DNA of 64,000 nt from Diphasiastrum complanatum. Lineage: Eukaryota; Streptophyta; Lycopodiopsida; Lycopodiales; Lycopodiaceae. Of the stretch, positions 513 through 57,540 are shown piece after piece (within the stretch, counting starts at the first letter, position 1; each line of letters begins with the position of its first letter). The notes beneath the pieces are model-generated. The model was not told the DNA's origin, searched no databases, and saw only the letters and a list, made by a program, of their open reading frames with translations. The position numbers and the translations under genes were made by a program. The stretch spans positions 32,717-96,716 of the forward strand of contig MU831924.1 in NCBI GenBank assembly GCA_029204225.1. The letters run 5' to 3'.

Positions 513-600
513 GACTCAAGGGTGTTGGCTCAATTGGTTATCTTGACATCCAAAGTTTCTTTGGTCTCAAGTTCGAGCCTCCCCTTGGAAACCAAGAAGC
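513..600 (+). mobile_element. Short tRNA-derived SINE, copy 1
   Basis: An 88-bp element flanked by a perfect 16-bp target duplication (497-512 and 601-616, starting ATTCTAATAG). It has RNA polymerase III promoter motifs like those of tRNA genes: box A TGGCTCAATTGG at 526-537 and box B GTTCGAGCC at 571-579. The same sequence recurs at 36459-36545 and 56539-56629, each time with its own duplication, so it is a mobile family and not a tRNA gene. It ends CCAAGAAGC with no poly(A) or T-rich tail and has no long tRNA-unrelated body, which is unusually short for a plant SINE. Mobilisation by a LINE is inferred from the SINE class. Confidence 0.85.
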
Positions 601-616
601 ATTCTAATAGATGATG

Positions 617-1103
617 TGTTGGATTTTACCTTCTGCAATTTTTCAATTGTCATGCTACTTCACCAACTACACATGCCCAACACCCCGTCCAAGATGTGTT
701 CCTAGACTTTGCATTCTTGCCTCACCTTTCAAGACCGCCAAATAGGCCTGATCATTGTCACTGAGAATATGTTAAGGCGGATGCAATGACATCGGTGTAG
801 GAGGGCCTTTGATTGCCACCATTAAGGAGGGACAAAACAAGGTTTTTTGTCATAAGGGATGGGTCTGAGGTACACTACGACAATTTGAGCAGAATCCAAG
901 GTGGTTGAGACTCCCTGGTTTCTCATAGTTTCCGGTATTTCTCAAAGCTTGTGGTATTGTTGAGACATGTTGGCACTTTGTTTGGTTGCTTAGATTTCCA
1001 AATTCCGTTATTCGCATATGCGTATGCTTGAATATGCTGGAAAGTAGGATTGTGGCTTGTCACCTTCGTAACTGTTATCATCAAGTGATCTTTCTAAGTC
1101 TGA
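617..1103. other. No gene recognised
   Basis: Mixed-composition sequence without a long open frame, repeat or splice-supported exon that I can recognise. The missing upstream exons of the FemAB-like gene were looked for here and not found. Confidence 0.5.
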
Positions 1104-1572
1104 ATGAATGTGACAGTAAGTAGCAGTATCTTTTCTGTTTTGTGCTTCATTTGTTTCTTTCAAAACTTTGTTGCACTCCTGTCTCTACACTGCTGCCTTC
1201 TGGTTGAAGTCATCAAAGAGATTTTGAAACAAGGCAAGTTTGCGAAGTATTTCTATGGTGGAATTGAATTGCTTGATGCTCATATTGACCATACAGTAAT
1301 CCATGAGTACATGGCAAAACTGGAAAGTGCAGTGACAAGAACTTTCAAGAAAAACAGTTTCTCATCTATTTTTTTAACACTAATTGGCCAGGGGCTTTCA
1401 AAAATCTGTCACAGATGCCTCTTACCTGGAATGGATAGTTGAAAACCCAGCAGTTATTCTTGATGTAATTTCTTCTACTAGTTTTGTCATCAAGGAACCC
1501 TATTGTAGACTGAGAATCTTGGCATCCAGCTTGCAATATGTGCTTTTTGTCTGTTTTACCCCTTTGAGTTAA
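1104..1572 (+). other. Exon-like coding stretch, unrecognised
   Basis: Two overlapping open frames. The first (1104-1442) contains a segment at about 1207-1350 that looks like real protein: VIKEILKQGKFAKYFYGG, then LLDAHIDHTVIHEYMAKL. The second frame (1384-1572) contains SVTDASYLEWIVENPAVI. The amino-acid composition is that of a soluble helical protein, not a repeat translation. I do not recognise the family. It does not match the part of PF04339 expected just upstream of the exon at 3512. It could be a remnant of a neighbouring gene or a captured fragment. Confidence 0.3.
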
Positions 1573-2133
1573 GCAGTGGTTTGAAAGTCTGGCAAAATAG
1601 TACCGTAGTCTCTTTGATCATGGGAGGTTTCTTGGTACAAGGCATAATTGCACAGAATCACGATTCTGGGAGGGGACGTTTCGGAAACCGCGTTTCTGAG
1701 AAACGCGTTTCTCCTCCCAGAATCGCATTCCAGAATCGTATTTAAAAAAAAACAGTATACTTAAAAAATTTTGCACCTCTTCACGGCCAGAATCGCGCCA
1801 GCCGTGGAGGAGGTAAATTTTTTTGTTTTGAGCTACGGGTGTCCGATCGAGGCATGTGCATAGTTGGAAGGCATCTACTCGGCGATACGGAGGTGGTGTG
1901 CACGGTGCCAGGGGGATCTGAGCTTCGCGCAGATCGAAACGATTAGTTTTCGATTTTTGGTAAGTGTAGGCTTGTTTTTTTACAAGTGTTGACATTGAGC
2001 TGTATGCAACCAAATCAAGCGTAGTTTGGCTCTAGACCACCTTTCTTCATGCCCACGGTGATTCCTACCATGGGCGCGACACGGGTGACCTGCGACGACT
2101 GGCCGAGAGAGTCCTTGTACAGGACACACTTGC

Positions 2134-2698
2134 TTGGTGGATTCATCAGTTGCTGCTCCTCGGGCACCACCCACGCAGGAGGAGATGGATGATGAGATCT
2201 ATAGAGAGTTATATAGACAGGCGCAGGCTGACGCACGGGATCTATGGCATTCGAGGAGGGCAGACAGGCAGAGGGATAGGGCTGAGGAGGGGGATGATGA
2301 GGGCTTGGAGGGTGGAGAGGAGCTCAGGGCTGAGTTCGCTTTTTGTAGACAGGAGTGGAGCATCACATGTAGCCGTCGGCCAGGCATCATCACAGTGGGT
2401 AGGGCCATCCCAGGGCGTTGGATCACAGCCACCTGACACACAGACATGCGGGGGTAGACACAGGGGTGGGGGCAGGCAGAGTGGGGCCAGAGGAGGGGAG
2501 AGAGGCAAAGGCAGAGGTAGAGGCAGGGGGAGGATCCAGAGCCAGAGCACGCAGCAGAGAGCCAGAGCACGCGGCAGAGCCAGGGCCACACCACGGCATA
2601 TGGCTCCCTCCAGTTCTGATTCATCTACAGACCCTTGGGATCTGCAGTCACGCACAGATTCAGATGATGGTTCCTACCATGACTCTAACGAGCCTTAG
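2134..2698 (+). pseudogene. Acidic then Arg/Gly-rich reading frame inside the hAT-like element
   Basis: Two overlapping frames appear to be one frameshifted coding stretch. The first (from 2134) reads QEEMDDEIYRELYRQAQADA followed by an acidic run. The second (to 2698) reads RGKGRGRGRGRIQSQ, then a Ser/Asp-rich tail DSSTDPWDLQSRTDSDDGS, and stops. A GRGRGR stretch followed by a serine/aspartate tail resembles the C-terminus of some plant hAT transposases. No dimerisation-domain motif is visible. GC content is far above the flanking DNA. The minus-strand frames over the same bases are shadows. Confidence 0.4.
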
Positions 2699-2818
2699 TT
2701 GTGTAGTTTTCATTATGTTCATGGAACATCATTGTACCCCATTCTGGTGCCATGTGGCCCGATATTATATATTACGATGATCCTATTCACAGCAGTGTAA
2801 TGATTCAGTACTATTCTT

Positions 2819-2819
<1 letters not shown>

Positions 2820-2894
<75 letters not shown>
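2820..2894. repeat. (TG)n(AG)n compound microsatellite
   Basis: A short TG run passes directly into a long AG run of about 60 bp inside the hAT-like element. Confidence 0.9.
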
Positions 2895-2897
<3 letters not shown>

Positions 2898-3033
2898 GGT
2901 TGAAAAACGATTCCATATGGTTGAAAAATGCTTCAGTACGGTTCAGGACGATGCAGTATTGTGATTGGTTCAGAACACTTAGCATGGTTTTTGTTTAGCA
3001 TGATTCAGCATTTTTGTTTAGTTTGTTGGATCT

Positions 3034-3037
<4 letters not shown>

Positions 3038-3096
<59 letters not shown>
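3038..3096. repeat. (GA)n microsatellite
   Basis: GA dinucleotide run of about 58 bp inside the hAT-like element. Confidence 0.9.
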
Positions 3097-3099
<3 letters not shown>

Positions 3100-3511
3100 G
3101 GAGAATTTTGGGGCATCATGTTTTTTTATTAATGCACCTGGGAGTTAAAGCGTAAACCTGGGAGTTAATGCACCTAAACTAGACCATCCTGCACCCGAAA
3201 CATTCGGCAAAATACACAGTAATTATGCTCTTAATTAGAGCTTTCACCTGATACCCATATTGCCCAAAAAAAAACCAAAAAAATAAAAAATAAAAAAAAA
3301 AACGTTTCTGGGAATTTTTTTCATATTTCAGAAACGCGTTTCAGAAACGCAGTGCAACTATGGTACAAGGGCACAACCGTGAAGTACTAGAATTTTTTAT
3401 GCGCTTGTTGTTCATTGAATTGATTGTATGAATTCTTCTTGATCAAGATTGATGTAAAATAACCAGACTCTATTTCTTCTCATCATTCTTTCTTGTTTAC
3501 TTTTGTTACAG

Positions 3512-3578
3512 TTTCGATGAGTTTCTCATGGATTTGAAGCAGACAAAAAGAAAGAACATACGCCAAGAACGCAAAAAG
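3512..3578 (+). CDS. FemAB-like gene, first visible exon
   Basis: The acceptor is TTTTGTTACAG and the donor is GTAGTA. The first base completes a split codon; the rest encodes [20 protein letters not shown] plus KK, the basic signature of PF04339 that precedes the acetyltransferase-like fold. The exon ends in phase 0. Confidence 0.88.
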
Positions 3579-6500
3579 GTAGTAAAGTTTGCTGAGAACT
3601 GTTCTCAAGCTTGGAGTACCGGTATCAACATTTGCAACGTTATAGCCATTCTGATTGTAGTATTTCTTCTCTGCTGGTTAAGTAAACTTTGTGACTATAT
3701 TTTCTGAAAATTAATATTTGAGCTGGTCTCTTCATGATCTGGCAAATCATTTGGCAGTCATTTGGCAGTTTTCTAGCTATGCGAAGGCGTTTGACTACCT
3801 GTACTAAATGCATAGTAAATCTGAGCTACAAGTTATGTTCTTTTCAGGTCCAGGCTCAAAATTTAAAAGTAAAGCGCCTTAGAGGAGATGAAATAAAGGT
3901 GTGCATGAATTCCATTCTTTAGAAAGAAAGTTTCTAATGGAGTTGCAGTCAAGCTTGGGTTGATGTAGGTTAGAATTGTTAAGTCTGAGTTTCTTCTCAC
4001 CAACCCCCTTGCTTTGTGTGGTTCCTAGTGACTTTGTATAAGGATTGAGCACAATATCAATGTCCTATCATCTATGAATGGCCTATATTTGTTTGGAATG
4101 TGCTTCTGGACTAGATCATGGCAAAATATTTTGAATTTTTCCTCATTAATGACAAGTGTAAAGGTGGGCATTCACTGAAAAGCCTGGTCATAAAAAATAT
4201 GAGCTTCATAACATCTGCTACAAAATATGCACCCAATGGATTATTGCTAATAGTCCATTTACTAGTTTGAATTCCCCAAATGTATGCAACAAATTTGAAC
4301 ATATTGAAGTGATGAAAAAAAATTTATTATCATAACTGGTCCAATTATAATAGCAGATGCGATCCTTGGATTTGGAAAACTAGTTATTGTCATTTAATTG
4401 ACGACTAATGTCAGCTATTGCTGAATATTTGTACTGTGCAGTGACAACTTAAATGCAATGCGCAAACAAACAGTTGTAGGCATAAGGTAATTGGTGAAAC
4501 TGTTAGAAATCAATGATAAACTTCATTGTTACACTTCTTACTTACTGTTCACGATGTACTTTATTATTGACAGCTATTACCAGCTGTAACTAGCCGTAGG
4601 CTAGTCTAGTAGTCTACTCCTAGGTTTTCTCTCTCTATCAGGGTTCAAGGTTTATTTGTACATTTTACATTCAGTATGCATACAGTGTAATAGAGTGTTG
4701 AGTGAGAGTGCGTGTTCTACTTTCGCCTTCTTTGGTGATTGCTTATGGTGAATGCTTGATGTTGCTTATCTGATTACTGACATGGTATCAGAGCTGCGAT
4801 AGTCTTGCGTGCCTGATTAGTGGATACAGCTTGTCACAGGCTCCGGAATGAAGTGAGGAAGTCCTTCACAGGAGGTGAAAGCTTGGAGAGACAAAAAACA
4901 GCTGGAAGTTGCATATCCGTACCAATATCGGATCAACACGCGCGAGCCCAAGAAGGTCCCAAGCGGTAGTACACCCGCGCGCTGAACCGATATCAGGTGT
5001 ACAACCAAGAATATACAGTTTTGTGGTGTGATAAATTTGGAAACAAGTTGTGTGCTCAGACTGAGCCATTTTTTTTTTTCTGCAATCTGGACTCATCTAT
5101 CCAGTAATGGCAACTCTAGGCGAGAGCGTCCTCAAAGAGTCAAGCAAATTGGAAGGAGCCAGCAACTATGCAGTTTGGAAATTCAAACTGAAAAACATTT
5201 TGATGGAAAAGGAGCTATGGGAGATCGTGACAGGTGAAGAGACAAGGCCAGTGATTGAAGAAGATCAGTGGGCATTTGACAGGAGAAAATGGAAAGCACA
5301 AAATGTCATCAACTTATCAGTTAGAGATGCAATCATTCCCTACATTTCGGATTCAGAAGGACCAAAAGAAGCATGGGATACGTTGAAGGCATTGTTTGAG
5401 ACCACAAACACATCTCGAGTGCTATTACTGAAGACGAAGCTGCACACATGGATGATGGTGCAACTATTCCTGATCACCTACTGAAGATCAAAGAGATTCG
5501 TGACCAATTAGCAGAAGTTGGAAAGCGAGTACAAGATCGTGAGATCGTGCAGTTGACATTGAATAGTCTAAGTGAGTCACATCAGATGTTTGTGACAAGT
5601 ATAGCTACAAGAGAGAACCTTCCAACCTATGAAGAACTAGGTGGATTGCTTTTGCAGGAAGAGCAACGTCAAGAGAACTTGAATCATCGTAACAGGGGCT
5701 ATGATCAAGCTCTTGCAGTTAGAGGATGAGGAGGAAGATTTGGCCGTGGAAGGTATCAATCGAGAGGTGGAAACTCAAATCGTGGATCGTCCCAACAATT
5801 TCAAGAACAATCCAATGATGGCCCAAATTGAGGCAATTGGAATCAAGGCCGAGGTCAAGGACGCGGCTATTCCAGGCAAAATAAACCTAGAAATTGTAGG
5901 TACTGCTACAAACCTGGCCATTGGGAGCGTGAATGCTTCAAGAAACAGAAGGAGATAGAACAAAGAAAAGGCAAATGGCAAGCGGGCAATTATGCTGATC
6001 AATATCAATTTGATGATGATTATTATGAAGACAATTATGCTGATCAACATCAATACGATGATGATCAATATGAAGAGGATACAGGTGAGAGTTCAAACTT
6101 GTTCATTACAGCATTAATGAAAAGTGATGAAGCCAAGGATACTTGGTACATTGATAGTGGTGCATTCAAGCACATGACTTCAAGGAAAGAGTGGTTTTCA
6201 GAACTCAAGGAAACTCACAACGGGGATGAAGTTGCACAAGTTGATGGCAAATTGCTATCTGTTAAAGGATTTGGAGTGGTGCCAGTGAAGTTAGCCAGCG
6301 GGATGATAAAGCGGATAAGCAATGTGGAATATGTACCTGGCTTAGCTAACAATCTACTATCTGTTGGGACAATGGTTGATCAACAACTCAAGGTTGAGTT
6401 TGACAGTGACAAATGTCTTGTCAAAGACATCAAGAATTACTACAAAGTGATTGTTACAAGAGCTAGAGTTAACGGGAATCGACTCTACAAATTGAATGCG

Positions 6501-15500: not shown

Positions 15501-18500
15501 ATCCTAAAATATGACTTACTATAAATAGTAATGGCCTCTAAAAATAGCACCTAGGCATGGCCAAACTATCATTAAGGGGTGTCAAATAAACATTACTTTC
15601 TAACAGGTGTTGTGCAGTAGAACCAAATTGTAGGATAAGTAGGAGAATTTTATGTGAACTTTGAGTTATTTTAGGATAATCAGAAGACATCTTTCTCAAC
15701 TTTAATCTGTGAAAACCATTGAGCTATATAAAAAGACATTAAGAAGGAACCACCCTTTTAATCAAGAGTTATAATGAGGATGAAAAAAGAAAATAATCAA
15801 GCTAATGAAGGTTAGGATGAATCTGTAGAATGATTTCAGAGTTGAAAGAAGTTGTCAGCTTAATGTTCGAGTAAAATTTATTGTTTTGCAAGCCAGTAAT
15901 GGAATTGTAACATTTATGACAAATGGGATCAAGTTTGTTGGGATGAACTGGTAAGAATAAACCATACTATTGCTTTAGAATAAAACAATATCAGTTCAGT
16001 TCAAAATTGTAATTAGGTGGATTAGAAGGAATTCTCCAAAAAGACAATTTAGGCGCAATCAGAAACACGAGTTTAGAGTGTGCCAAACACTCTTTCATCG
16101 TTGCACTTACCTTGACCTTAAAATGATGGTAATTGAGCAAGGTATAGTGTGAAATAGGATATCATGACAGTCGATATTGGTGGTAGGGGTTAGCCGACAT
16201 GACAATCTGACTCCCAACCTTGCATCCATAATTCAGGAATCATGACCTATTTTTGAAGAATGAAGTTGATTTAAGAGCAAAAACAACAACAAAAAGTGGA
16301 AGAGAAAATAAACTAGGATGGCTTTTTGTGTGAAATTTTTTTTTCAGAGTTGGAATTGTTATTAGTCTTTAAACATGTCGTTGCCTTCTTGTCTTATAAA
16401 AGGTGGCTCTCTCTCTCAAGTATAATAAAACATCAGCACTTCATTTGGAGAAATTATCACATGCTCAGGTGCTCTTGAAAGTGATTACACACACGAGGGA
16501 TACATAAAAGTTGCATGTATGATGGAGAAGTTATTTGTCGTTGTTGCATTGTGCAAGAAATCAACGGTAGCTTGCACCTTAAGACCTTTGAGTCTGACAA
16601 AAACTAGCGAACGTGCCTGAAAGCCATACATCAACAAAAACAAACTAAATTTAGTGATAAAATCCTTCGCACTATTGTGGAACTCAACCATTGGGAGGTA
16701 CTTTTCCTAATCAGACCGTCTATGAGATACATATGCTCAAAGCATATCCTCCATAGTCTGGTTGATACATTTTGTTTGCCCGTCGGATTTTGGGTGATCC
16801 AAAGAAAGTTTTTCAAATAGTGATTGCCAAAAATTGCTAATGAACTTGGAGTCTTGATCACTAATATATCGTTTGGCAAGCCATACAATCCGAACAACTT
16901 TTCAACGAAAGGTTGGGCTAATTCAGGTGCCTTGAAAGTAGATTTAGTTGGTATAAATTGCACCAATTTGGTTAGCCTATCAACCACCACTCAAATGGTG
17001 TCATGATGTTTTCGGTCTTAGGGAGTCTAGTCACAAAATTCATTCTTATTGGGATTTCCAAAGGATGTAAAAGACCCAAAACTTTGAATCTAGTTGCTTT
17101 ATTGAACGGGCATTGAACATATGCCTCGACATGACCTTTCATCTTTGGCCAATAAAAACTATGTTTAACAAGGGCCAGTGTCCTCTGTATGCCAAGGTGA
17201 CCAGCACAAGGGTTGTCATGACACTATTGTAGGATTTGAGCCTTAAGGTCCTCCCCGTTTGGCACATATACCTTTCCCTTCTAGAAAAGCAAGCCTTTCC
17301 TTATGGAATATTCATTTAATATCTAATCATTTCAAGAACTCTAGAAATCTTGCATCTCAAGGTCTTCACTGGATCTAGAATTCCTTGCCATGACATCTAG
17401 CTAGATTCGACCGAAATGCCCATCGGTCCGACAAAGATCTCAAAGTGAAAGATACAAATCGGATTAGATCTTAGCAAAGCATAACCGATCAACCTCTCCA
17501 ATTCAACTCAAAGCATCAATTACATAGTCTGACGTACCTTTATGATACTTAATGTCGAACTCTGTGAATGAATTCCAACAACCTAGCCTTATGGCCTCTT
17601 AGGTCAACAACATCACATATGTACTAAAGGGATCGATGATCAATCATCACCGTAAATTTGGCACCTTATAAATAATGCCTCCAAATTTTCAAGGCATAAA
17701 TGACTACAAAAAGTTCCTTCTCATAGGTAGAATACCTACACTGAGCAAATGTGTAGGTATTCAACTACACATTGTAAATGGGTATATTGAAGAATTATGA
17801 GACCTAGCTATGGAGTATCTTAACTCAGATGCTAGATCAACCATGAAAGCTTGAGAAAACTTGGCTATGGAAATATCACACACAAGGAGAATTGCATGAG
17901 CATCTCACAAACTCAAAAGTGTCAAGAAGAAATGAATTGCTAGAGAGAGAGAGGAGGGCGTGGGTCCTCCAAATCCCTTGTGAGGCAAGCACCTCCTTTA
18001 CATGCATGGAAAGTCTAGGTGTCAACCATAGGAGTGAGCTACTTGGCCAAGTGGGCCACTTGCACTAATTTACATAAGTTAACAAAAGGGGGGGTCATGC
18101 ATTTAATTAAAACATGCCCCATGAGTTATGTACAACTTAACTAATGCTTAGCCAAAAGGGGTAAAATAGGCATTACTCTTCAACACCCTCCCTTAATGGC
18201 AATTTTATTCAAACTGACACCCAACAAAGTTCTGAACTTTTCAAACTTATCTTTACTAAGTGGTTTAGTAAAAATATCAGCTGTCTGGTCGTTGGTGTCA
18301 CAATAAACTAGCTCGATCTCCCCACTGTGCACTTTCTCTCGTATAAAATGCTGGTCCACCTCTATATGTTTTGTCCGTGCATGATAGACTGGATTCCTTG
18401 CAAGCTGAATGCAGCTTTGGTTATCACAATGTAACAATGTAGGTCTTACTTGAGCAATCTGCATGTCCTCAAGTAGACGGCGTAACCAAATGGCTTCACA

Positions 18501-21500
18501 GGCGGACCTCGTAGTCGCCCTGTACTCAGCTTCGGTAGACGATAGAGCAATAGTAGGCTGCTTCTTACTGCACCACGATATAGCCCCTGAACCTAGGCTG
18601 AAACAATAGCCTGTCGTCGATCTCCGATCGTCTCTATCACCTGCCCAATCAGAATCTGAATAGCCTTCCAGCTGAAGGTTCCCGTCATCCGTGTATCCAA
18701 TCCCATAAGTCACTGTCCCTCTCACATATCGTAAGATCCGCTTGGCTGCCTTCCAATGTGCTTCGGTAGGCTTACACATGTATTGACTTGCGATTCCAAC
18801 CGCATAAGCAATATCTGGCCTGGTGGTAGTAAGGTAAATCAGGCTGCCCACTAACTGACGATAGAGCGTCTCATCTGCAAATGCTAGACCATCATCTTTT
18901 GATGGCTTGTTGCTTGCATCCATGGGTGTGCTGATTGGTTTGCTTTCTTGCATGTTAAACCTCTTCAATAATTTCTGTGCATACTTTGCCTGTGAGATAA
19001 AAAGACAACGCTTTCCTTTCCAAACTTCAACTCCTAGGCAATAGTGTAGCAAACCCAAATCTTTCATTTCAAACTCATTAGAAAGATTCTTCTTAACACA
19101 AGCAATAAGCTTCTTATTGCTTCCCGTGATGAGTAGATCATCCACATAGAGCACAACAACCACAAAGTCTTCTCCTTCCCTGAAGACATAAAGATTGCAA
19201 TCAGACTTACTCTTCTCAAACCCTTGCCTTGCAAAGTACTCATCAATTCGGCTATACCAAGCCCTTGGCGCCTGTTTGAGCCCATACAAAGCTTTCCTAA
19301 GCCTGCAAACCAGATTCTCCTTGCCTGTTACTTCAAATCCCTGCGGTTGTTCCATGTAAACCTCCTCCTGTAGGTGCCCATTAAGAAAGGCACTCTTGAC
19401 ATCCATTTGATGGACATCCCAATCAAAATATGAGGCTATAGCCAAAACGGTCCTGATAGATGTCATTTTAGCAACAGGTGCGCCCCTCTTGCTGAGCATA
19501 GCCTTTCGCCACCAACCTTGCCTTGTACTTGTCCACTGTTCCATTGGCATGAAACTTGGTCTTATAGACCCACTTGCAACCTATTGGTTGCTTCCCTTCT
19601 GGCAATGTAGTGAGCTCCCATGTGTCATTCTTGACAATGGAGTCGTACTCCTCCTGCATGGCATGTTGCCATACCTTTTCTCTCACGGCTTCGTGAAAGA
19701 ATTGTGGCTCATCTGCATTCAGAATAGTGGACATAAGAGCAAAGTTAGTCTCTTGTCTCTCATGAGACCTAAGAGATCTTCTGACACCCTGTTCACTGCT
19801 CTCTCCTTCTTCAATCATTTGACCTTCTTTGATTGTTTCCCAATACCACCTAGGTAGCTTCTTCCTAGCAGTAGGTGATGTGGATGGTGACCACGTATCC
19901 CATGGTACTGTTTTAGTCTTCCGTTTGTCCCCAACTTCTGCTTCTGGGACTTGGCCAAAAAGAGGTCTCGAACTAGTAGGTTCGGTTTCCTGTTGTTGCT
20001 CCTGCACTTGAGGCTTACAGGACTCTTGACTAGGATCCTCATCCGTGGAATCAATCAAGGGTATGAACTCAGTAATTCCTTCCTTCTCCTGCTCCTGTAT
20101 CTTGGGTGCATGCTCTTCATCAAAGATGACATCTCGACTTAGGATCTTCCTCCTATTTTCGAGATCATATAGCACATAAGCTTTCTCACCTTCACTATAC
20201 CCAAGAAAGACACACTTTACGGATTTTGCATCAAGTTTCTTCCGCAAGTCCTTTGGTATATGTGCATATGCTGTACACCCAAATACTCGAAGGCTGCCCA
20301 CCTTGGGCTTGTTGCCACTATATGCCTCTTCTGGCGTGATTCCTTCAACTGCTTTGGTTGGACTTCTATTCAATAGAAAAACAGCAGTTGCTACCGCTTC
20401 TGCCCAAAAGGAATTTGGCAACCCCTTTGCCTTGAGCATGCTCCTCGCACACTCAACTATAGACCTGTTTTTCCGCTCAGCCACGCCGTTTTGCTGCGGT
20501 GTATGTGGAGCAGTAAACTGTCTCTTTATCCCACATGCTTTGCAAAGATCTTTGAACTCATCAGAAATATACTCACCACCCTTATCTGACCTGAGAGTCT
20601 TTAACCTCTTTCCTGTGTGGTTTTCCACCATAGCTTTCCACTGTTTGAAGTATTTGAACGCTTCAGATTTCAGTTTCAGAAAATAGACCCATACCTTCCG
20701 AGAGAAATCATCTACGAAGGTCATGAGATAGTATGCCCCCCTTGCTGATTTGACCTGCATGGGACCACATAAATCTGAATGCACAAGTTCAAGAATGCCC
20801 TTGGCCCTGGTAGCTTTCTCCTTTGGAAACTTTTTCCTCTGTTGCTTCCCTAATGCACAAGCCTCACATGTATCTGAAGAAGACTTAATGCTAGGAAGAT
20901 CTACTACCATTTTGTGCCTGTTCAAAACTTGCAAACTTTTGTAACTCAAATGACCATATCTCTCATGCCAAAGCTTGTCCCGATTAGTATCTCTTGCAGA
21001 CAAGGCCTCTTGGCTAGGAATGGTTGTGAAAAGCTTGTAAAGGCCTCCTTCTTGCATTCCCTTGGCTACCACTTTGAAGTTCTTCTCTTTGTCTTTTACC
21101 AAACATTTAGAATCATTAAACTCTACCACCATGTTCTGTTTGGTAATGGCACCAACAGATAACAAGTTCTTAGCCAACCCTGGTACATGCAACACACTTT
21201 TAATTTCCTTCACCTCACCTGATGATAGCTGTATTGCAACTGTACCTTTGCCCCTCACCATACGTGTAGAATTATCCCCAAGGCAAACATGCTGGCTATC
21301 TTCTGTCTCCTCATAGGTGCTGAACCAATCTCTATGAGGTGTCATGTGCTTTGAGGCTCCAGAATCAATGTACCATCCACCAAATGTGGATTCAGATGAT
21401 AGGGCTGCGGTGAATAGCTCAAGCACACCAGATTGCTCCTCCTCTGCAACTTTGTCAACAAAGTGACTCTGCTGGTTCTTTCCCTTCTTCTGATCACTTT

Positions 21501-23942
21501 GCTTCTTCCTGCATTCAAAAGCAAAATGCCCATACTTACCACAATAGTTGCAGTTGCCCTTCCTCTTGGGTGTAGATGAGGAATTGGTGCTTGACTCCTC
21601 TCCAACCTGTAACTTGGACACCTGCTGCTCCAAGCTTTGCTTTGAGTTCTTCTTTTTGCCTTTGCCTTTCTTCTGAAAGTTTTGCTTCTTCTTAGAAGCA
21701 AATGCAAGCTCTGGATTATCTTCCCTTTCAAAAAGATTCTTCCTTCTCATCTCCTCCTGTAAAAGAAGACCACATAACTCCCCAAAGGTTGGGAGTTTCT
21801 CCCTAGCAGAAAGGGACATCACATAGTCTTGATAGTTGAATGACAAGCTGTTCAAGACTATGGGAACAATACTCCTGTCACTTACTTTCTCTCCAACTGA
21901 AGCAAGCTGATCCAATAGGTCCTTGACCTTTGTAATATGATCACCAATTGTTGCACCTGCTTCCATCTTGAGAGTATGTAACCTGTTTTGCAAATACGCC
22001 AGCTTGGCTGAATCCACTGTTTCAAACATAGACTTCAGAATTGTCCAAGCATCAGCTGCATCCCTTGCATTGCAAATGTGAGGAATAATATTGTCCTTGA
22101 CAGAAAGATTGATTATCCTATGAGCTTTATGTCTCCTGTTCATGTAGTCCTTCAATTCAGGATCAGATGTTGGTACAGGTTCTGTACCTGTCATGACCTC
22201 CCAGCAATTCTTATCCATCAAGATATTGGCTATCTTGAACTTCCACACTCTGTAGTTTGTGCCATCTAGTTTGCTAGATTCACCCAGCAAACTCTCCCCA
22301 AGACTTGCCATGCTAAAATCTGTGCTTAAAACAGAAGCTCAACTTGAAAGAGATCAGAAAAGAACAGCTTCCAGCAACAAGGGTTTAACCCCAAACTAGG
22401 GTATGTAGCCACTTCAAGGCAACCCTTCAGCTCCTGCTTTTGTCTTTGCCACTTGGTGTGGCCTCACTAGCACAAGCACTAGGCTCCACTGGAACAGAAA
22501 CCAGAAGCCCCTACAGAAAGTGCGCCCTACTTTTGTGTAAGCTCCTCCAGAAAGACTCTCCAAAACTTAGCCAGATTTAGAAAGTTTTTGGATCATCCCA
22601 CTCCCCTTGCCAATAGCTCTCCAACAGTGCAAGACTCCACCTGATCTGACACCTGTAGATCAAATGCTCCCTCTTTCAAGATTGAGGTGCTTGTAGAAGA
22701 TAAGAATCTTCTCAAGAATCTAAGCACTGAAGTTTCTCTCACTCTCAGACTCACAGGCTAGACAACCTGCTCTGATACCATGAAGAATTATGAGACCTAG
22801 CTATGGAGTATCTTAACTCAGATGCTAGATCAACTATGAAAGCTTGAGAAAACTTGGCTATGGAAATATCACACACAAGGAGAATTGCATGAGCATCTCA
22901 CAAACTCAAAAGTGTCAAGAAGAAATGAATTGCTAGAGAGAGAGAGGAGGGCGTGGGTCCTCCAAATCCCTTGTGAGGCAAGCACCTCCTTTACATGCAT
23001 GGAAAGTCTAGGTGTCAACCATAGGAGTGAGCTACTTGGCCAAGTGGGCCACTTGCACTAATTTACATAACTTAACAAAAGGGGGGGTCATGCATTTAAT
23101 TAAAACATGCCCCATGAGTTATGTACAACTTAACTAATGCTTAGCCAAAAGGGGTAAAATAGGCATTACTCTTCAACATATATGAGTTCAACTTACTAGA
23201 CATTCATTAGTCCCATGATTAATTATCATGGGTTATATCTATTCACATTAATTGGATGGGATATGCAATGGTAAAAGGAAATTGGGCCTATTATGAACGA
23301 TTACTTTTGGAACTGCATGTGAGAACCATGCAGAAACCCTCGAGTATCTTGAGTTCTACGAGGAGGCCCACTTATTGTACAAGTAAGGATTAGGATGTCA
23401 TTTGCAATTAGGTTCAAATAGCGCACATACGACAAGTTTTTCATGTATGAGCATTGGGCTCAAGTTTTAACGCATAATAGGTTAGGAGAAACTTCTATGG
23501 TTTAATGTGATGCTTGATCCCTCCGCTATTGTGTTTAATTTGCAACTGAGTATCACTGAGTCGTCATCCAAAGCATTAGGTATGATAGCTTTGTATGATC
23601 ACAAGGTTTCTCTCACAATGTACCTAACAATTTCGAATGTTTAATCCCAAGAACCAATGATCATTGCATATTCAAAGACACTTTTGTGTTATAATAGATA
23701 CAAGAAACTAACTAACCAAATTCTTCACCTATTTTTTATATCCCATTTTGGATTTTAAGCTTTTCTATATGATGTAATTATCAGTGGAGTCAACTTTCCT
23801 TACATGATGTTATATATTCCATGCTTTTCTATGTATCTATATAATAATCGAGTCATATTTCCTCACCTGATATTGTTTATGTGCAGGCACATCATTGGGA
23901 TGCGTTCTATAAGTTTTATCGAAATACAACTGACAATAAGTG

Positions 23943-29700: not shown

Positions 29701-31552
29701 GGGGGGGGGGGGGGGGGGGGGGGTCAAATTGTAGGTAATTACAGATAGATTCTATAAACAATGAAAAAGAGTAAACTCTAAACAGGGTATTGACATGGAA
29801 TGAAAGCATCCTTGGAAATTGTTGTGGAAATAACACTCTTGGCATAGGGGATTAGAGATCCTCACAGTAACATAAATCTAAACTCTCAAATCAAAATGAG
29901 TAGAGATAAGGTGAGAAATGTGGATTCCTCAATAAAAGCATATTATATGAACTTGAACAAGCTGAGCATGGCATATTTCACAAACCATGCTCTCAAAGGA
30001 AGTGCATATGAGTCTCTTAAAAAGTCTCAAGTCACCAAATCAATCATTTATCGAATGAATGGTGGTTACTCTTAGTGTTTTGCAGGCCCTTAAGGGAGCC
30101 TCCTATGAAGCTACAAGGTAGGTTTAGGGCATATCATAAGCATGGTAGAGATTTGTGGTCCTACTAGTCTCTTGGTTCAATCAACCGAAGGTTATCAACT
30201 AGCGGAATAAAAACAAGAACCATGGGCTCAACTCATAACAACGTTTGAATACCTATAACTCTGAGTTGCCCTAATCATGTGTCCTTAACTTTAATCTCCT
30301 TGAATGTAGGCAGTAAATGGAGGAGCTAAATATATTTAAATGAGAATGAAACATAAGTTTTAAATGTAATTTATATGCTCAAGTAGGTAGTGAACACGTC
30401 AAAATTTTTTTGGCCACATCTGTAGTGATTGAATGATTTGCAAGTGTGCTCACTGCAAGTGCTCATGCTTAGCCCTGAAGCAGAGTGCATGGACAAGCAC
30501 ATCAGTGGACTCTAATGTGGACTTGGCAAATCATCCATTATGGCGACTTTTGCTATGTTGTAATTGTTATGTAGAGCAACACATAAATAAAGTGAACAAA
30601 AGAGGAATCATCTGGCAAGTTTGGACCATTGGGGGGGGGGGGATCAAATTGTAGGTAATTACAGATAGATTCTATAAACAATGAAAAAGAGTAAACTCTA
30701 AACAAGGTATTGACATGGAATGAAAGCATCCTTGGAAATTGTTGTGGAAATAACACTGTTGGCATAGCGGATTAGAGATCCTCACAGTAACATAAATCTA
30801 AACTCTTAAATCAAAATGAGTAGAGATAAGGTGAGAAATGTGGATTCCTCAATAAAAGCATATTGTATGAACTTGAACAAGCTGAGCATGGCATATTTCA
30901 CAAACCATGCTTTCAAAGGAAGTGCATATGAGTCTCTTACAAAGTCTCAAGTCACCAAATCAATCATTTATCGAATGAATGGTGGTGACTCTTAGTGTTT
31001 TGCAGGCCCTTAAGGGAGCTTCCTATGAAGCTACAAGGTAGGTTTAGGGCATATCATAAGCATGGTAGAGATTTGTGGTCCTACTAGTCTCTTGGTTCAA
31101 TCAACCGAAGGTTATCAACTAGCGGAATAAAAACAAGAACCATGGGTTCAACTCATAACAACGTTTGAATACCTATAACTCTGAGTTGCCCTAATCATGT
31201 GTCCTTAACTTTAATCTCCTTGAATGTAGGCAGTAAATGGAGGAGCTAAATATATTTAAATGAGAATGAAACATAAGTTTTAAATGTAATTTATATGCTC
31301 AAGTAGGTAGTGAACACGTCAAAAAAATTTTGGCCACATCTGTAGTGATTGAATGATTTGCAAGTGTGCTCACTGCAAGTGCTCATGCTTAGCCCTGAAG
31401 CAGAGTGCATGGACAAGCACATCAGTGGACTCTAATGTGGACTTGGCAAATCATCCATTATGGCGACTTTTGCTATGTTGTAATTGTTATGTAGAGCAAC
31501 ACATAAATAAAGTGAACAAAAGAGGAATCATCTGGCAAGTTTGGACCATTGG
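29701..31552. repeat. Direct tandem duplication, period 920 bp, with poly(G) runs
   Basis: Unit A is 29724-30632 and unit B 30644-31552. Corresponding points are exactly 920 bp apart at both ends. By eye about a dozen differences occur over some 900 bp. Unit A is preceded by 23 G (29701-29723) and unit B by 12 G (30631-30642). Unit A ends GGACCATTGG directly in the second G run; unit B ends GGACCATTGGCC. The duplicated ORFs (MICKCAHCKCSC start at 30433 and 31353) are copies of one short frame and are not supported as genes. Confidence 0.93.
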
Positions 31553-35856: not shown

Positions 35857-36444
35857 AAAGCCAATTTGTATCATCAAATTGAGTACTATGAATGACTCCA
35901 AGATTTTCATGTGTAGTCGTAAAACTGGTGCAAAAATCCACTACGAACCATTCTTTTGAATAACACTCAATCCATTTCCTAACATTACATAAATCACAAA
36001 GGGCAACAATCCAAAAAATCATAATGATTATTTTAAAAATGAAAATCTTTACAAATTTGACATGTTTTATTATCTACAATTACAAACAAAATAATTTTTT
36101 TAAGTGTTGATGATCAACATTTGAAAACATTGAATATATATGTTTGTTGTAGCTACATTTATGTATATCGCTTAAAAAAACATTGTAAGAAAATCATTGA
36201 TAATATGTATGTATCTCATGATATTTATTCACGTCGCTCAAATACTTTTGGATATACGACATATTAATTAGCTAGACTTATTTATTTTTCAAGTATTAAA
36301 ATTTAGAAATTGAAATTCTAATCACTTTGAATTTTGAATATCGATTTTTTTTTATTTATTAAAAATAATTTCTTCAATCTAAAAAAAATTGACAGCCAAA
36401 TTTAGATTCGAATAGGAGCTATTCTAAGTCGGTCATATAGAGTC
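35857..36444. other. AT-rich DNA, nothing recognised
   Basis: Very AT-rich stretch with A and T runs and no supported feature. Confidence 0.55.
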
Positions 36445-36458
36445 ATTATTACGAACTC

Positions 36459-36545
36459 ACCCAACGGGGTTGGCTCAACTGATTAGCTTGGCATCCAAAG
36501 TTTCTTTGGTCCCAGGTTCGAGCCTCCCCTTGGAAACCAAGAAGC
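36459..36545 (+). mobile_element. Short tRNA-derived SINE, copy 2
   Basis: An 87-bp copy with a perfect 14-bp target duplication starting ATTATTACGAACTC (36445-36458 and 36546-36559). Box B GGTTCGAGCC is at 36515-36524; box A at 36471 is slightly changed (TGGCTCAACTGA). It ends CCAAGAAGC as in the other two copies and sits at the left end of a gypsy RNase H relic. Confidence 0.85.
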
Positions 36546-36830
36546 ATTATTACGAACTCGAGAGACTCATTGATTTAGAGACATCATATTCTACTCGTAA
36601 TAAGGAAATATGGGCAATTGTAATTGCACTAAAAAAAAATGGCATCATTATTTATATGGTTTTGAAATTATAATTTAAAACAATTATCATAGCTTGAAAT
36701 ACCTCTTCAACCAAAAACGATTGAGTGACAAATGAAAGGGATGGTTGTCACATGTTCAATCATATAATTCTAATATTATCTTTTAAAAAAAGACAAATAT
36801 AGTTGTTGATGCAATGGAATGCGTTTCTTT
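36546..36830 (+). pseudogene. Gypsy RNase H relic
   Basis: Translation across frames gives ETSYSTRNKEIWAIVIALKK, then a WRHYLYG-like HHYLYG, SLKYLFNQKRLSDK, and finally NIVVDAM (the NVVADALSR motif). This is the second half of a Ty3/gypsy RNase H with several stops. The rest of the element is not seen nearby. Confidence 0.65.
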
Positions 36831-48210: not shown

Positions 48211-49030
48211 GTGGATGTTCTTGAAATGAATCTAAATGGTTATGAATTCTCAACAATTCTTAACTCAGTAAATTTAGATCATGAACAAGTAGTGAAAGAA
48301 CAGATCATAAATGAATTCAGGGATGTTTTTTCATCTGAATTACCTCATGGTTTACCACCATCTAGGTCAGTAGACCACATGATTGAGCTAATTCAGGAGT
48401 AAACCTGTCTCTAGACAACCTTATAGGTTTTCTCAGAAAGAGGAGACGGAGATTTCAAATCGAATAGAAAACTATCTGAGGATGAGACATATACAACCTA
48501 GTAAATTACCATGGGGCGCTCCTGTTCTTCTTAAAACGAAGAAAGATGGAGGTTTCGGGATGTGTGTGAATTACAAGGGTCTTAATAAAGTGACTATCAA
48601 AAATAAATATCCATTACCCAGGATGGATGACCTTGTAGATCGCTTGGGTGGAGCACGGTATTTCACCAAGATAGATCTCAGGACAGGGTACCATTAAAAA
48701 GAATTAAGTCGAAAAATGTCCAAAAGACAAGATTTCGTTCTAGATTTTTTCATTATGAATTCTTAGTGTTGTCATTTGGATTAACGAATGCGCCAGCAAC
48801 GTTCCAATAAATGATGAACGATTTATTTCGTCCATATTTGAAAAATTTTGTGGTTGTATTCTTAGACAATATTCTTGTTTATAGGAGATCCTTGGTGGAA
48901 CACGTAGAACACTTAAAAATCATCTTGATGAAACTCTGTCGGGAGTTACTCTACGCTAAAGAATCCAAGTGTGAATTCTTTAAGCATGAGTTGCTTTATC
49001 TCGGTCATAAGATCACAGTAAATGAGATCA
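48211..49030 (+). pseudogene. Gypsy-E reverse transcriptase fragment
   Basis: [20 protein letters not shown] (about 48320) leads into [42 protein letters not shown] and [12 protein letters not shown], a stop near 48697, then [10 protein letters not shown]. The catalytic block reads VVVFLDNILVY, so the second Asp is Asn. The fragment ends with CEFFKHELLYLGHKIT. Confidence 0.88.
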
Positions 49031-52604: not shown

Positions 52605-52930
52605 TCATTCATGCTTATACATGGTTCTTTTGGGTTCTAGTATCCATTGGTGCACTATACTTGTGATATCTTACAATTATATGTGTAGAATGATCAATAA
52701 GTGTTATTTTTAGATCCACACGTGTGAAATACAGTAGCTTACTGTAATTATACAGACAAGAATAGTATTTTGTGTTTTTGTTCATGTTTGATCAAGATCT
52801 ATTAGAGTTTGCATCTCATTTTTTGTGTAGATGCTGATTTTTTTACATTGGCAACATTGGTGGAGTTGATTGTTTTCTAACCAAAGATCAAAGGGATATT
52901 TTGGATCTTAGTGATCTGAAATCTTTCACA
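52251..52930 (+). repeat. Copia-D 3' LTR
   Basis: 680 bp, TGTGAAAGATTC to GATCTGAAATCTTTCACA. It contains a (CT)n run at about 52536-52601 that the solo LTR and the 5' remnant lack at that length. It is followed directly by Gypsy-F gag (GAGGATTGG). Confidence 0.9.
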
Positions 52931-53487: not shown

Positions 53488-55362
53488 TTATAGAAAAATT
53501 GCGAAGTTTAATTTTTGCAAAGAAAAACCCCTAAGATGAGGATAGGAAATACAACAGGATACACGTTGGCGCAAAACCTCTCAACCAAACCTAGATCAAT
53601 CCTTTATCTAGCCCCTGAGCCATGCCATGTGAAGAGGAGAAGAGAGCAACTGGTAACCTAAACCAAGTTGTCGACGGGAGAATCTCTACCTCAATATATA
53701 GAGAGTAGATTCATGTGCATGAACCCATGAAATCGCCATGTAGGTCAACTATAAATAGGTCACATCTCTTTAGGCAGTCCTCTTGCCTATATCCGTCACA
53801 CATATATGCACTATTCCATATGTCTCAATTAGAGTGTCTGGGTCCTCTCAAAGTTATTAGTCACCAGCATGCCTCAACATGAAATTAAATCTCGACGTGA
53901 CCAATAATCTCGAACATCAAGGGCCGGTCTACCATATTAGGACTATTCCATGTCCTTAACAGAATATGGCCATAACATTCTTCCTTCCTTAAACTGGTTC
54001 TGTCTTCAGAACGGGAAAGAGAAGACATGAAATTATTCTTTAAGCTTTCAACTTTTTTCCATGAATTATTATCCTTAGTCTGATCTTTCCATTTGAATAA
54101 ATACTCAGAGATGCAACAATTCTTCAATTGCTTGTCTCTTCGCAGGAGTATTAACTCAAGATTCGAAGATACATTAAGTCATAATTCTTTCAAACGAGTT
54201 GATCTTTTCCAAATAAAAACATCACCTTCATGTAATCACAATTACATGAATCCCTGGGTAAAATGGTCCTTTATTCTAGAGATCAATTCCAAAAGCTAAA
54301 GAAAAACTCATTTTTCTGATAGTCTGAACATTGTCCACAATTCCTTGTAGATAATAGTGCTTGGTACAAATATTCTTAAAATATTCAAATGTTCTAAAAT
54401 TACAACAATTCAATCAAATGTTCTAAAATTACAACAATTCAATCAACCAAAATCTCTAGGAGATCCATCAAGTCTCAAACAATTATAACTCAATCTAGAG
54501 TACTACAGTTACTCTAATAAGTTGATAGCCCCATTTCTAGCATCACATGCAAAAAATTAACAATCTATTTGAATCTAAATATATTATTCTATCTCCTATC
54601 AATCCGGAGATCTAGATTGAACCTCATACACAAGCACTTATAGACCACAATTTGTAGTAGAATACAATCCACTAAAATAAGCAAAATTCTCCATAAGTCA
54701 AAACAAATAAAAAAGAAATAATTTCCTTAACAGGAAAGCATTCTAAAAATCATTAACATTAGGAATAATGGTCGCATGCAGCATGAATCTTTAAGAGAAC
54801 TTCTTTTTTAGATGGAAGCTTGTTGTCTCTTGTTTGGAAGCTTTGTGAGATTGAGATGTGTAACCAGGTTAGGAAACAATTTTGATGTAAAGATCACTAA
54901 GAAAAACCCCTAAGATGAGAATAGGAAAACACAACAGGATATACGTTGGAGCAAAACCTCCCAACCAAACCTAGATCAATCCTGGATTTAGCCCACAAGC
55001 CATGCCATGTGAAAGCTAGAGGAGAAGAGAGCAACTAGTAACCTGAACCAAGTTGTCCATGGGAGAATCCCTACCTCAATATATAGAGAGTAGATTCATG
55101 TGCATGAACCCATGCAATCCCCATGCAGGTCAACTGTAAATAGGTCATAGCTCTTCATGCAGTCTTCTTGCCTATATTCGTCACACGTACATGCACTATT
55201 CCATATGTCTCAATTAGAGTGTTTGGGTCCTCTCAAGGTTATTAGCACAAACAGGCCTCGACATGGAAATAAATCTCGACGTGACCAATAATCTCGAACA
55301 CTGGAGGGTCGGTCTACCATATTAGGACTATTCCATGTGCTTAACAGAATATGGCCATAACA
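53488..55362 (-). mobile_element. Gypsy-G: internally deleted LTR element nested in Gypsy-F
   Basis: LTR copies are 53488-53977 and 54869-55362; the second half of each is strongly conserved (AATCTCGACGTGACCAATAA to GGCCATAACA). Target duplication GGAACC is at 53482-53487 and 55363-55368. On the minus strand a polypurine tract GGAAGGAAGAA abuts the 3' LTR at 53978-53988. Only about 890 bp separate the LTRs. On the minus strand they hold a decayed chromodomain-like end (EYLFKWKDQTKDNNSWKKVE, 54127 to about 53990), which points to a gypsy chromovirus. The left ends of the LTRs are diverged, so the exact limits there are approximate. A 30-bp tandem repeat lies at about 54385-54445. Confidence 0.75.
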
Positions 55363-57540
55363 GGAACCACAGACACCGAAAAAAAAAAAAGTTGAAGAAT
55401 TCTATGTCCCAGATGAAGGCTAAAAGGCAAATCTATATTTCATTTGCAACAAGCTTGGACATAAGATGAAGTTTTGTCTAGAAAGGAAAAAACTGGTTGT
55501 ACAGATGATTGAAATTCTAGGGTGTAAATGTAAAACTTTGGAAATTAACTTGTTTGATTGTGAGTGTGAATGTTCTTTTAGTACTGCTTCTTTCTTGTCT
55601 AATGAATCGTTTCATTTAACATGCAGAATTAGAGATCAAGAAGTAAATATTCTATTAGACAACGGTTCTACTCATGACTTCATTAATTCTCGTCTTGTGC
55701 AGAAACTCAACCTAGCAATTGAAGCCAGCAATCATAGATATAGAGTTTATCTTGCTTCAAAAGTAGATTTGGAGACTTGGAACGTTGAAAGTGCTGAATC
55801 TCTCATTATGAATGGTAATTTAGTAATTCGCCTTCTTTGGCTACTAATTTTGAGAAACATGTTCTCACTTTCAAGGAGGGTGATAAGGTAGTTACTTTAT
55901 TTGGCAACAATTTTGTACATCCGTTGGATGGAATTTCTATAGTTAATATAATGGAAGCATTTGATTATTCATAGTATGATATTTTTTCAGTATTTGCTAT
56001 TTCTATTATGGATGTTTATTATGTGCATCTAAGTAGCTGTAAATTCTCTGTAATTCTTAACTTATTAAGTTTAGATCACGAACAAGCAATGAAAAATCAT
56101 ATCATAAGTGAATTTAAGGATGTTTTTCCATTAGAGTTACCTCATGGTTTACCACCATCTAGGTCAGTAGACCACAGGATAGAGTTAATTCCCAGAAAGT
56201 CATCATATCTCTAGATCGCCTTATAGGTTCTCTCAAATAGAGGAGATAGAGATTTCAAATCAAATAGAAAACTATCTGAGGATGAGACATATCCAACCCA
56301 ATAAGTCACTATGCGAAGAAAGATGAAAGTTTCCGGATGTGCGTGAATTACAAGGGGTTGAACAAAGTGATTATTAAAAATAAATATTCATTACTTAGGA
56401 TGAATGACCTTGTAGGTCGCCTAGGTGGGGCTAAATACTTCACTAAGATAGATCTCAGGGCAGGGTACCATCAGGTAAGAATTAATCAAAATATGTCCGA
56501 AAGATTGGATTTCGTACTAGATTTGGCCATTATGAGTTTGTAAGTCAAGGGTGTTAGCTCAATTGGTTATCTTGACATCCAAAGTTTCTTTGGTCTCAAG
56601 TTCGAGCCTCTCCTTGGAGACCAAGAAGCATTATGAGTTCTTAGTGTTACCTTTTGGGTTAACAAATGCTCCAACAACATTCCAACAAATGATGAACGAT
56701 TTGTTTCATCCATATTTGGGAAAGTTTGTAGTAGTATTCCTACATTATATTCTCATCTACAGTAAGACCTTTGAGGAACGTATTGAACATTTGAGAATTA
56801 TCTTGATGAAACTCTGATAGGAGTTACTCTATGCTAAGAAATCCAAGTGTGAATTCTTTAAGCATGATCTAGTTTACCTCAGTCATAAGATAACTACTTA
56901 TAAGATCAAGATTAACGAGGATAAAATCAAGATAGTGGTTGATTGGCCAATACCACAAACTGTCAGGCAAGTTGAATCATTTTTGGGATTTACGATTTTC
57001 TTTCAGAGATTCATTGAGAATTATGCTAAAGTAACAGCATTGCTCAATAATCTGACAAAAGAGATTGTTAACAAAAAGAAAAAGAGGAATCAACCTAGTC
57101 CGCCTATTGTTTGGAAGAAGAAATTGAATCCGTGTTTTGAGAAACTTAAAACTTTGATTGTTTGTGCTCCCATGTTGCAGATTGCAGATCTAGATTTACC
57201 TTACGTCGTGAAAATTGATGCAAGTGATATTGCAATTGGAGCGGTTCTATTACAGAATGATATGCCACTAGCGTTTGAAACCAAAAAATTCAGTGGTCCT
57301 CAGTTGCGTTATACTGTGCAGGAAAATGATTTATTTGCAATTATTCATTCACTTAAAACTTGGAGACACTACTTGTATGGTAGTAAGTTTATAGTGTATA
57401 CGGATCACCTTCCTCTTAAGTACTTTTGAAATCAACATGATCTTCGGGGAAGGAAAGCCTGATGGGCGGAATTGATACCTGCATTTATTGCATGATATTC
57501 ATTTGATCACAAAAAATTCAAATTTGAGTTCTTGATAAGA
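55363..57540 (+). pseudogene. Gypsy-F zinc knuckle, protease, RT and RNase H
   Basis: It starts with a decayed zinc knuckle (CNKLGHKMKFC, about 55446-55482). Protease at 55466-55891 keeps [37 protein letters not shown] is near 56130. RT begins [20 protein letters not shown] (56340) and [16 protein letters not shown]. It is interrupted by SINE copy 3 at 56539 and resumes with [18 protein letters not shown]. The catalytic block reads [12 protein letters not shown], so both Asp residues are lost. RNase H at 57190-57430 has VVKIDASDIAIGAVLLQND, WRHYLYGSKFIVYTDHLPLK. Homology ends near 57540; integrase and 3' LTR are not present. Confidence 0.87.
56539..56629 (+). mobile_element. Short tRNA-derived SINE, copy 3, in gypsy RT
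   Basis: A 91-bp copy inside the Gypsy-F RT frame, with target duplication ATTATGAGTT (56529-56538 and 56630-56639). The duplicated bases encode part of the HYEF motif on both sides. Box A TAGCTCAATTGG is at 56555-56566 and box B GTTCGAGCC at 56601-56609. It closely resembles copy 1 in sequence. Confidence 0.88.

Follow-up and report, generated by a model that had tools for sequence, protein, structure and literature searches.

Here we describe a very short SINE in Diphasiastrum complanatum that carries neither tail nor body and that recurs, at a strongly preferred site, in head-to-tail arrays whose later copies appear to have entered on the left, clearly in one array (L047) and with weaker indications in six others. 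Judging from sequence comparison, the element is probably copied from a putative Pol III transcript with boxes A and B and inserted by LINE enzymes through target-primed reverse transcription, a reading that we hold with good confidence. The first-pass annotation had reported three copies inserted at CATT; the longer target signal, the arrays, and the order of left entry are new.

Copies in the window and in the genome

The window is the whole stretch of 64,000 nucleotides that was analysed, and all features located in it here lie on the + strand. The three copies reported earlier (513-600, 36459-36545 and 56539-56629) are real, each with a perfect target-site duplication (TSD), a common 3′ terminus CCAAGAAG(C), and a pairwise identity of 87-96%; nhmmer, run with a model built from copies 1-3, found no fourth copy in the window (next best E 0.35). 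The TSDs had been recognised earlier at 16, 14 and 10 bp, but those lengths omitted a shared C, and when it is assigned to the target they become CATTCTAATAGATGATG (17 bp), CATTATTACGAACTC (15 bp) and CATTATGAGTT (11 bp). Copy 1 (513..599), which belongs to subfamily A with 0 differences from the A reference, stands between TSDs at 496..512 and 600..616 and has the TT of the sampled-site consensus at 478..479, positions -18/-17 from the insertion point. Copy 2 (36459..36544; subfamily B, 1 difference) stands between 36444..36458 and 36545..36559 and has AA rather than TT at -18/-17. Copy 3 (56539..56628; subfamily A, 3 differences) has ~6 additional 5′ bases, TT at 56510-56511, a left TSD at 56528..56538 that lies within a Ty3 reverse transcriptase frame, and a right TSD at 56629..56639. 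Its empty target, CATTATGAATT, occurs once at 48751..48761 in a paralogous Ty3 element, so CATT was probably present before copy 3 inserted, in agreement with the pre-insertion site proposed earlier.

Judged against consensus motifs, copy 1 has TGGCTCAATTGG as its box A, while box B is AGTTCGAGCCT / GGTTCGAGCCT; the boxes are separated by 44 nt, a tRNA-like spacing. These boxes and their spacing fit the derivation from a tRNA that was claimed earlier, but ARAGORN returned 0 tRNA genes, no Rfam tRNA match was obtained (copies 1 and 2 had none even at a loose threshold), and the predicted RNA fold of copies 1 and 2 is a long hairpin with pairing ends and no cloverleaf. Near the copies, ARAGORN likewise found no tRNA gene in 51 loci, some of them overlapping. 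A tRNA origin of the SINE is something we only infer. In copy 1 the predicted fold has an apical hairpin, CCAAAG-TTT-CTTTGG, at 550..564. The description of the copies as little more than a tRNA head holds for the absence of body and tail, but not quite for the last 16 nt (CTTGGAAACCAAGAAG), which lie beyond the tRNA-like part and can form a stem-loop, predicted as possible in copy 1 at 584..599 (CTTGG-AAA-CCAAG-AAG).

A 21-base pattern made of the 3′ end followed by CATT has 3,935 exact matches in the genome (1.74 Gb), a count that thus presupposes CATT, and the reversed control has 0. Prokaryote genomes gave 0 matches; viral contigs gave 7 and 1, which were judged from their contexts to be chance matches in other sequences. 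TSDs are not peculiar to the window: after deduplication, 35 of the 36 sites of sample A have a parsable one, as do 23 of 29 in sample B, and wherever the TSD is parsable AAGAAG abuts it directly, with no poly(A), poly(T) or simple-repeat tail. Copies with a body or tail were not encountered among those examined, and the earlier picture of a dispersed family with TSDs, here ~86 bp long, at a strongly preferred site stands. SINEs usually carry a tail, according to PMC8825457; we do not treat it as essential to membership. Further in keeping with a SINE, the dispersed copies have TSDs of variable length (about 8-20 bp, mostly 14-16), and 5′-truncated copies share one 3′ end: several begin at model positions 13-67 and all reach 87, some with TSDs (e.g. 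L079, L084, L086 and L101). The variable 5′ ends may reflect truncation. These loci were selected by their 3′ end and so cannot show that it is always retained. At L083, one further match is followed by AGAT.

A split target

The CATT target proposed earlier is borne out, but the signal extends further, to T at -18/-17, T at -6, and a pyrimidine at -1. Over 58 sites, T is found at -18 in 45, at -17 in 43, and at -6 in 38, while the pyrimidine at -1 is present in all 58. Both upstream T are present at 35 of the 58 sites and at least one at 53; copy 2 has neither. The two samples, which are separate, agree: T at -18 in 27/35 and 18/23, T at -17 in 25/35 and 18/23, and a pyrimidine at -1 in 35/35 and 23/23, for samples A and B respectively. 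The background fraction of T at each of -18 and -17, over 1,621 YCATT sites, is 0.32. Insertions in sample A start with CATT at 33 of 35 sites and CATA at 2, a share biased, as is T at +6, by the presence of CATTCTAATA in the query; T at +6 and part of that CATT share were set aside for this reason.

Arrays and the order of insertion

Arrays account for 12 of the 81 sites on the part of contig C1 covered and hold 31 of the 100 copies there, where chance would give 0.03 same-strand neighbours. The copies in an array are oriented head to tail (up to 10 in the longest array read), and within an array copies of different subfamilies are separated by that site's own TSD as a spacer. Every one of the ten deduplicated arrays typed holds at least two subfamilies. 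At L045, two insertions of different subfamilies occupy the identical position in two copies of a repeated target.

The spacers of some arrays indicate the order in which copies arrived. The array read across L047 and L077 has 8 copies and ends on the right in the TSD CATTATTTG, but its inner spacers are CATTATTTGGCATC and include the GCATC of the truncated rightmost copy. Since these spacers hold the 5′-junction bases of the rightmost copy, that copy must have been complete before the others arrived, and the later copies clearly entered on its left. The rightmost-copy junction also appears in the spacers of L035 and L103 (the latter by eye) with two-base support, and in those of L019, L032, L034 and L102 (the last by eye) with one-base support, where point mutations or ambiguous 5′ bases could give the same result. 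At L042, two spacers match the genomic right flank for 16 and 18 nt, against 14 for the rightmost copy junction; we take this longer agreement to be a coincidence, as both continue AC. Mutation counts do not always fit growth on the left: comparing the leftmost copy with the rightmost, the former is the more changed in L023 (1/0), L032 (1/0) and L041 (3/0) and the less changed in L034 (0/4), L042 (0/4) and L050 (0/1). The left copy of L105 is diverged.

How the element may insert

Insertions start at Y|CATT and finish in AAGAAG. In the model that we favour, an endonuclease reading ~18 bp upstream (TT at -18/-17) would nick the bottom strand at AATG|R, and the 3′ end of the RNA (...AAGAAGCAU or ...CAUU) would pair with the AATG end and prime cDNA synthesis. 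Only sequence downstream of the nick would be duplicated, so that each insertion would restore the upstream signal and CATT on the left, the same site could be used again, and arrays would grow leftward in the layout L-TSD-new-TSD-old-TSD-R. Minimal target matches number, by extrapolation, several hundred thousand per genome. We tentatively propose a form of self-attraction, on the view that the sequence signal alone would not yield so much reuse: each copy, as a Pol III unit, might keep its 5′ flank open or occupied and recall the LINE machinery to the restored CATT, making arrays grow on one side; we regard this as possible but rather doubtful.

No partner LINE came to light in the sequences covered. 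Among the four of 71 zf-RVT matches inspected (L107-L110), none was a LINE with a matching 3′ end; L110 continues into about 12 A, and L109 stops short of the end of the frame. A LINE-tail search of 354 kb of sequence from the same genome, overlaps and the window included, gave two matches outside the modelled copies, a 21-nt truncated copy (L101) and L067 with two mismatches. The first 950 residues of P0113 have no match in the window or in a 200-kb sample, and P0113 was rejected as the window's LINE: of the whole query, the copia portion alone (residues 996-1453) matches the window. A copia search gave a best hit at 77% identity; the named hits listed come from land plants, at up to 58%, with PITA and Gb gene names read as Pinus and Ginkgo, and the assignment to plants was drawn from this result.

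The strongest competitor would build each array in a single event, the enzyme copying the target overhang after the first RNA, regenerating AATG-3′, and priming on the next RNA. This would predict TSD spacers of constant length, and within arrays spacer length is indeed nearly constant; many arrays also mix subfamilies at 0 changes from their references. Against it stand the rightmost 5′-junction bases in the spacers described above, and L021 and L050, which represent a single locus assembled twice, probably as haplotypes, and differ in the left copy, though later loss is an alternative cause. We consider a single event unlikely; it would be rated lower, and our preferred explanation higher, if four of the seven order-telling arrays did not depend on one base. 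Arrays that are uninformative as to order could still be accommodated by it. Tandem duplication through unequal exchange, with no insertion, is considerably less probable: L102, where a two-copy unit is present twice with the same spacer variant, indicates that duplication occurs, but duplication of one unit cannot yield the two or more subfamilies held by all ten typed arrays.

Two further alternatives concern the element itself. Occasional tail-less tRNA retropseudogenes, which L1 produces when priming is internal (Noll et al. 2015), would account for an absent tail and for TSDs, with priming by target complementarity possible, but not readily for thousands of copies, for a single 3′ end among the copies seen where several break points would be expected, or for the target Y|CATT in place of the TT/WAAAA given in PMC5322556, and we find this origin improbable. 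Even though copies 1 and 2 can fold end to end, their ends being partly complementary, a DNA element of the foldback or miniature inverted-repeat type is the least credible reading of all, with TSDs of variable length and 5′ ends that are ragged and often truncated; MITE-type elements have TSDs of one set length and terminal inverted repeats that are intact, features not found here.

Under the insertion model that we favour, some arrays would be a legible record of repeated insertion, their order given by the spacers, which is rarely possible for SINEs, and one-sided target restoration, a general but seldom seen result of target-primed reverse transcription, becomes directly testable. The responsible LINE could be sought by the signature of the split target, with its TT ~18 bp upstream and Y|CATT at the nick. 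Such families may be missed by annotation schemes like AnnoSINE, which, by its description (PMC8825457), looks for a SINE tail and drops candidates with inverted repeats.

Relation to known elements

With tRNA-derived plant SINE families, the element shares boxes A and B set apart as in a tRNA, TSDs of ~14-16 bp, 5′ truncation, and subfamilies; it differs from them in its ~86 bp, in the lack of a body and of any poly(A)/T or simple-repeat tail, in being unrecognised by tRNA searches, and in its arrays with shared TSD spacers. Tandem insertions at one site, with repeated use of a single target, occur for Alu as well, whereas here arrays make up 12 of 81 sites, reach 10 copies, and in some spacers leave the order of insertion legible. 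A split target, with an upstream T signal and a separate preference at the start of the TSD, also characterises the system of PMC13295347, where a T stretch lies ~10 nt upstream and TSDs begin with T; this combination, typical of plant RTE-type SINEs, was not found here, the TT lying instead at -18/-17, with a CATT start and no (GTT)n or Tn end. The tailless retropseudogenes of therians, primed by complementarity between RNA and target, likewise have no tail, and are defined in PMC5322556 by 3′ truncation inside a known RNA; for the present element no source RNA was found by ARAGORN or Rfam, and, in contrast to those retropseudogenes as there described, the 3′ end is constant in the copies seen, the target is another, and the family is large and divided into subfamilies.

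Results

The three SINE insertions of the window (copy 1 at 513-599, copy 2 at 36459-36544 and copy 3 at 56539-56628) are related elements of 86-90 bp, each ending in AAGAAG and followed by a perfect target duplication (TSD) that starts with CATT, which bears out the family of three copies with their own target duplications described in the first-pass annotation; a model built from the three found no fourth copy in the window. The insertion of copy 3 splits a Ty3 reverse transcriptase, and in a paralogous Ty3 segment, also within the window and 79% identical over 679 aligned positions, the site is empty and CATTATGAATT is present once. This paralogous empty site shows that copy 3 inserted cleanly, duplicating 11 bp of target, and its single CATTATGAATT suggests that CATT was part of the target before insertion, as had been proposed from the window alone. 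Copy 1 plus flanks (505-610) is identical at G000:C8:29334719-29334824; C406, the contig that carries the window, probably represents an alternative haplotype, and several other SINE loci likewise occur as such pairs in the assembly.

Elsewhere the window carries a copia element (18183-22338) whose open frames are long and which is young, its 398-bp flanking repeats (17788-18185 and 22781-23178) being 99.5% identical; its best database matches are 39% identical for the first frame and 77% for the RT part. There is also a tandem duplication of a 922-bp unit (29711-31552, units 98.5% identical) and an exon-like frame with the FemAB-like domain PF04339 (27650-27991, E 5.4e-25), which is likely a host gene.

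In the 1.74-Gb assembly containing the window, a DNA search in which 40 of 1,613 candidates were scored gave at least 58 matches, and the exact 21-mer CCTTGGAAACCAAGAAGCATT occurs 1,941 + 1,994 times, its reversed control 0 times. One copy was found in twenty 10-kb stretches from six large contigs (200 kb, of which 20.4 kb is N), very loosely compatible with a copy number on the order of 10,000. Six subfamilies (A, A2, B, B′, C and D) were distinguished using references built by hand. Most of the 75 typed copies, all close to the query or neighbours of such copies, carry 0 changes from their subfamily reference, and the family has therefore probably been active recently.

The proposed tRNA-derived character was not recovered: ARAGORN recognised no tRNA in the copies, nor did Rfam, whose loose-threshold scan covered copies 1 and 2. 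For these two copies the predicted fold is a single long hairpin in which box A pairs with the box B region (GGCTC/GAGCC); that of copy 3 differs, and folding z-scores range from -2.0 to -2.3. Across 23 distinct copies, 93.5% of the hairpin's cells are paired, against at most 61.4% when slid, and the pair of columns 7-73 is unpaired in 16 of the 23. Two-sided changes occur at two pairs, no excess over shuffles (281 of 500 reach it); all 500 shuffles stay below the observed value both for cells carrying such changes and for the covariation score. Since the structure was derived from these same sequences, the alignment lends it modest support. The terminal CTTGG-AAA-CCAAG is able to form a small stem-loop.

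Insertion at a split target signal

In sample A, collected with a CATT-containing query, 74 readable 3′ ends (the three window copies, 39 fetched stretches and the stretch L071, duplicates counted) are followed by CATT in 72 cases and CATA in 2; dropping eight duplicate stretches, and L047 for its broken left TSD, leaves CATT at 33/35 sites and CATA at 2/35. This share is biased because CATT was in the query; CATT also follows copies 2 and 3 and the L071 copy, all found free of that bias. Sample B comprises 28 stretches (L079-L106) from the exact 21-mer match list, hence with CATT by selection. A TSD could be parsed at 23 of its 29 sites and measures 14-16 bp at 16 of these (one was parsed as 27); an extra match in L083 has AGAT next after its 3′ end. 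At parsable sites AAGAAG abuts the TSD directly, so the tail-less 3′ end reported earlier holds. Several copies of sample B are 5′-truncated, and one (L101) consists of the last 21 nt of the element only, yet is flanked by a TSD with one mismatch. The direct 3′ junction, the TSDs and the 5′ truncation together are the signature of target-primed reverse transcription from the RNA 3′ end.

Aligning the 35 + 23 sites on the insertion point, with the upstream context of the stretch L045 entering twice, gave T at -18 (45/58), -17 (43/58) and -6 (38/58), G or T at -2 (47/58) and a pyrimidine at -1 (58/58). Background T at -18/-17 is 0.32 over 1,621 YCATT sites, and the -18/-17 and -1 signals recur in each sample taken separately. 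Only sample A has a strong G or C signal at -20 (30/35, vs 14/23 in sample B). We do not claim T at +6 (29/35 vs 11/23) as a target feature; it is strong in sample A only, whose query carried T there.

Arrays and their order of growth

The first 100 listed 21-mer positions, all on contig C1 (0-46.6 Mb), form 81 sites, 12 of which are arrays of head-to-tail copies: by exact ends nine of 2, two of 3 and one of 7, 31 copies together, spaced mostly 98-102 bp apart, with 0.03 same-strand neighbours expected by chance among these positions. Fully read arrays reach 6 copies in L032 and 8 in L047+L077, and L102 (G000:C1:15422800-15424100) holds at least 10 up to the end of the stretch. The spacer is the TSD of that same site, with small variants, and at least two subfamilies are present in 10/10 deduplicated arrays typed. 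Minimal TTN16YCATTNT sites, a pattern still including T at +6, number 63 in 180 kb, extrapolated to ~612,000 per genome, which excludes chance reuse of sites as the source of arrays. Within L102, a unit of two copies and a variant spacer occurs twice through duplication, so recombination acts too. The frequent reuse of some sites may reflect exceptionally strong target sequences or attraction by resident copies; L045, a repeated target in which different subfamilies hit the same position twice, points towards the strong target.

The order of insertion is recorded most clearly in L047+L077, where the rightmost copy is 5′-truncated, with TSD CATTATTTG, then the element from GCATCCAAAG, and right flank CATTATTTGTCTTT. 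The inner spacers, ahead of longer copies, read CATTATTTGGCATC, and because these TSDs took in GCATC of the rightmost copy, that copy came first and later copies entered on its left. The same pattern extends over two bases in L035 and, by eye, in L103; left entry fits by one base each in L019 (duplicate L020), L034 (duplicate L039), L032 and, by eye, L102, cases that a mutation or an ambiguous first base could also explain. Two spacers of L042 match the right flank slightly further than the junction, which we read as uninformative because flank and junction both continue AC, and this array gives left growth no support. Spacers of L023, L029, L041 and L050 carry no information on order; the arrays L092, L093, L100 and L105 lay outside this reading.

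Left-sided polarity would follow from the target signal, because the left boundary retains the upstream signal and regains CATT with each insertion and so refits the target, and the element's own 3′ end, with G at -1 and TT absent at -18/-17, does not. Mutation counts are only in part consistent with left growth: the leftmost copy has fewer changes than the rightmost in L034, L042 and L050 and more in L023, L032 and L041. L021 and L050, whose flanks differ by 8 bases within a CG run and are otherwise identical, are probably haplotypes of one locus; their right copies match at all but one base and their left copies are different, as expected if the left copy is younger, with loss a possible alternative.

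Candidate partners and comparison with known elements

A zf-RVT search of the assembly, with 150 of 1,335 candidates scored, gave at least 71 matches. Among four loci examined (L107-L110, of which L109 stops short of the frame end), no partner LINE with a SINE-like 3′ end was found: GGAAACCAAGAAG is absent downstream in LINE sense at up to 3 mismatches from L107 and L108, and at up to 4 from L110, which is followed by about 12 A; at up to 4 mismatches one match in L107 and six in L109 are all chance-like. On the small contigs C895, C3692, C4775 and C4778, zf-RVT matches lie at 19.5-19.7 kb intervals, the majority within 1527- or 1577-aa open frames, with other spacings on C3077, C429 and C2882; the regularly spaced frames may belong to a site-specific LINE residing in a long tandem repeat, e.g. 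ribosomal DNA. Literature searches, at the level of titles and abstract openings, yielded no description of this SINE family or of SINE arrays sharing TSD spacers, which is weak evidence of absence since most subscription journals lay outside the searches. A comparable split signal is, as PMC13295347 describes, also found in plant RTE-clade LINEs; their T part lies ~10 nt upstream, whereas that of the SINE lies at -18/-17.
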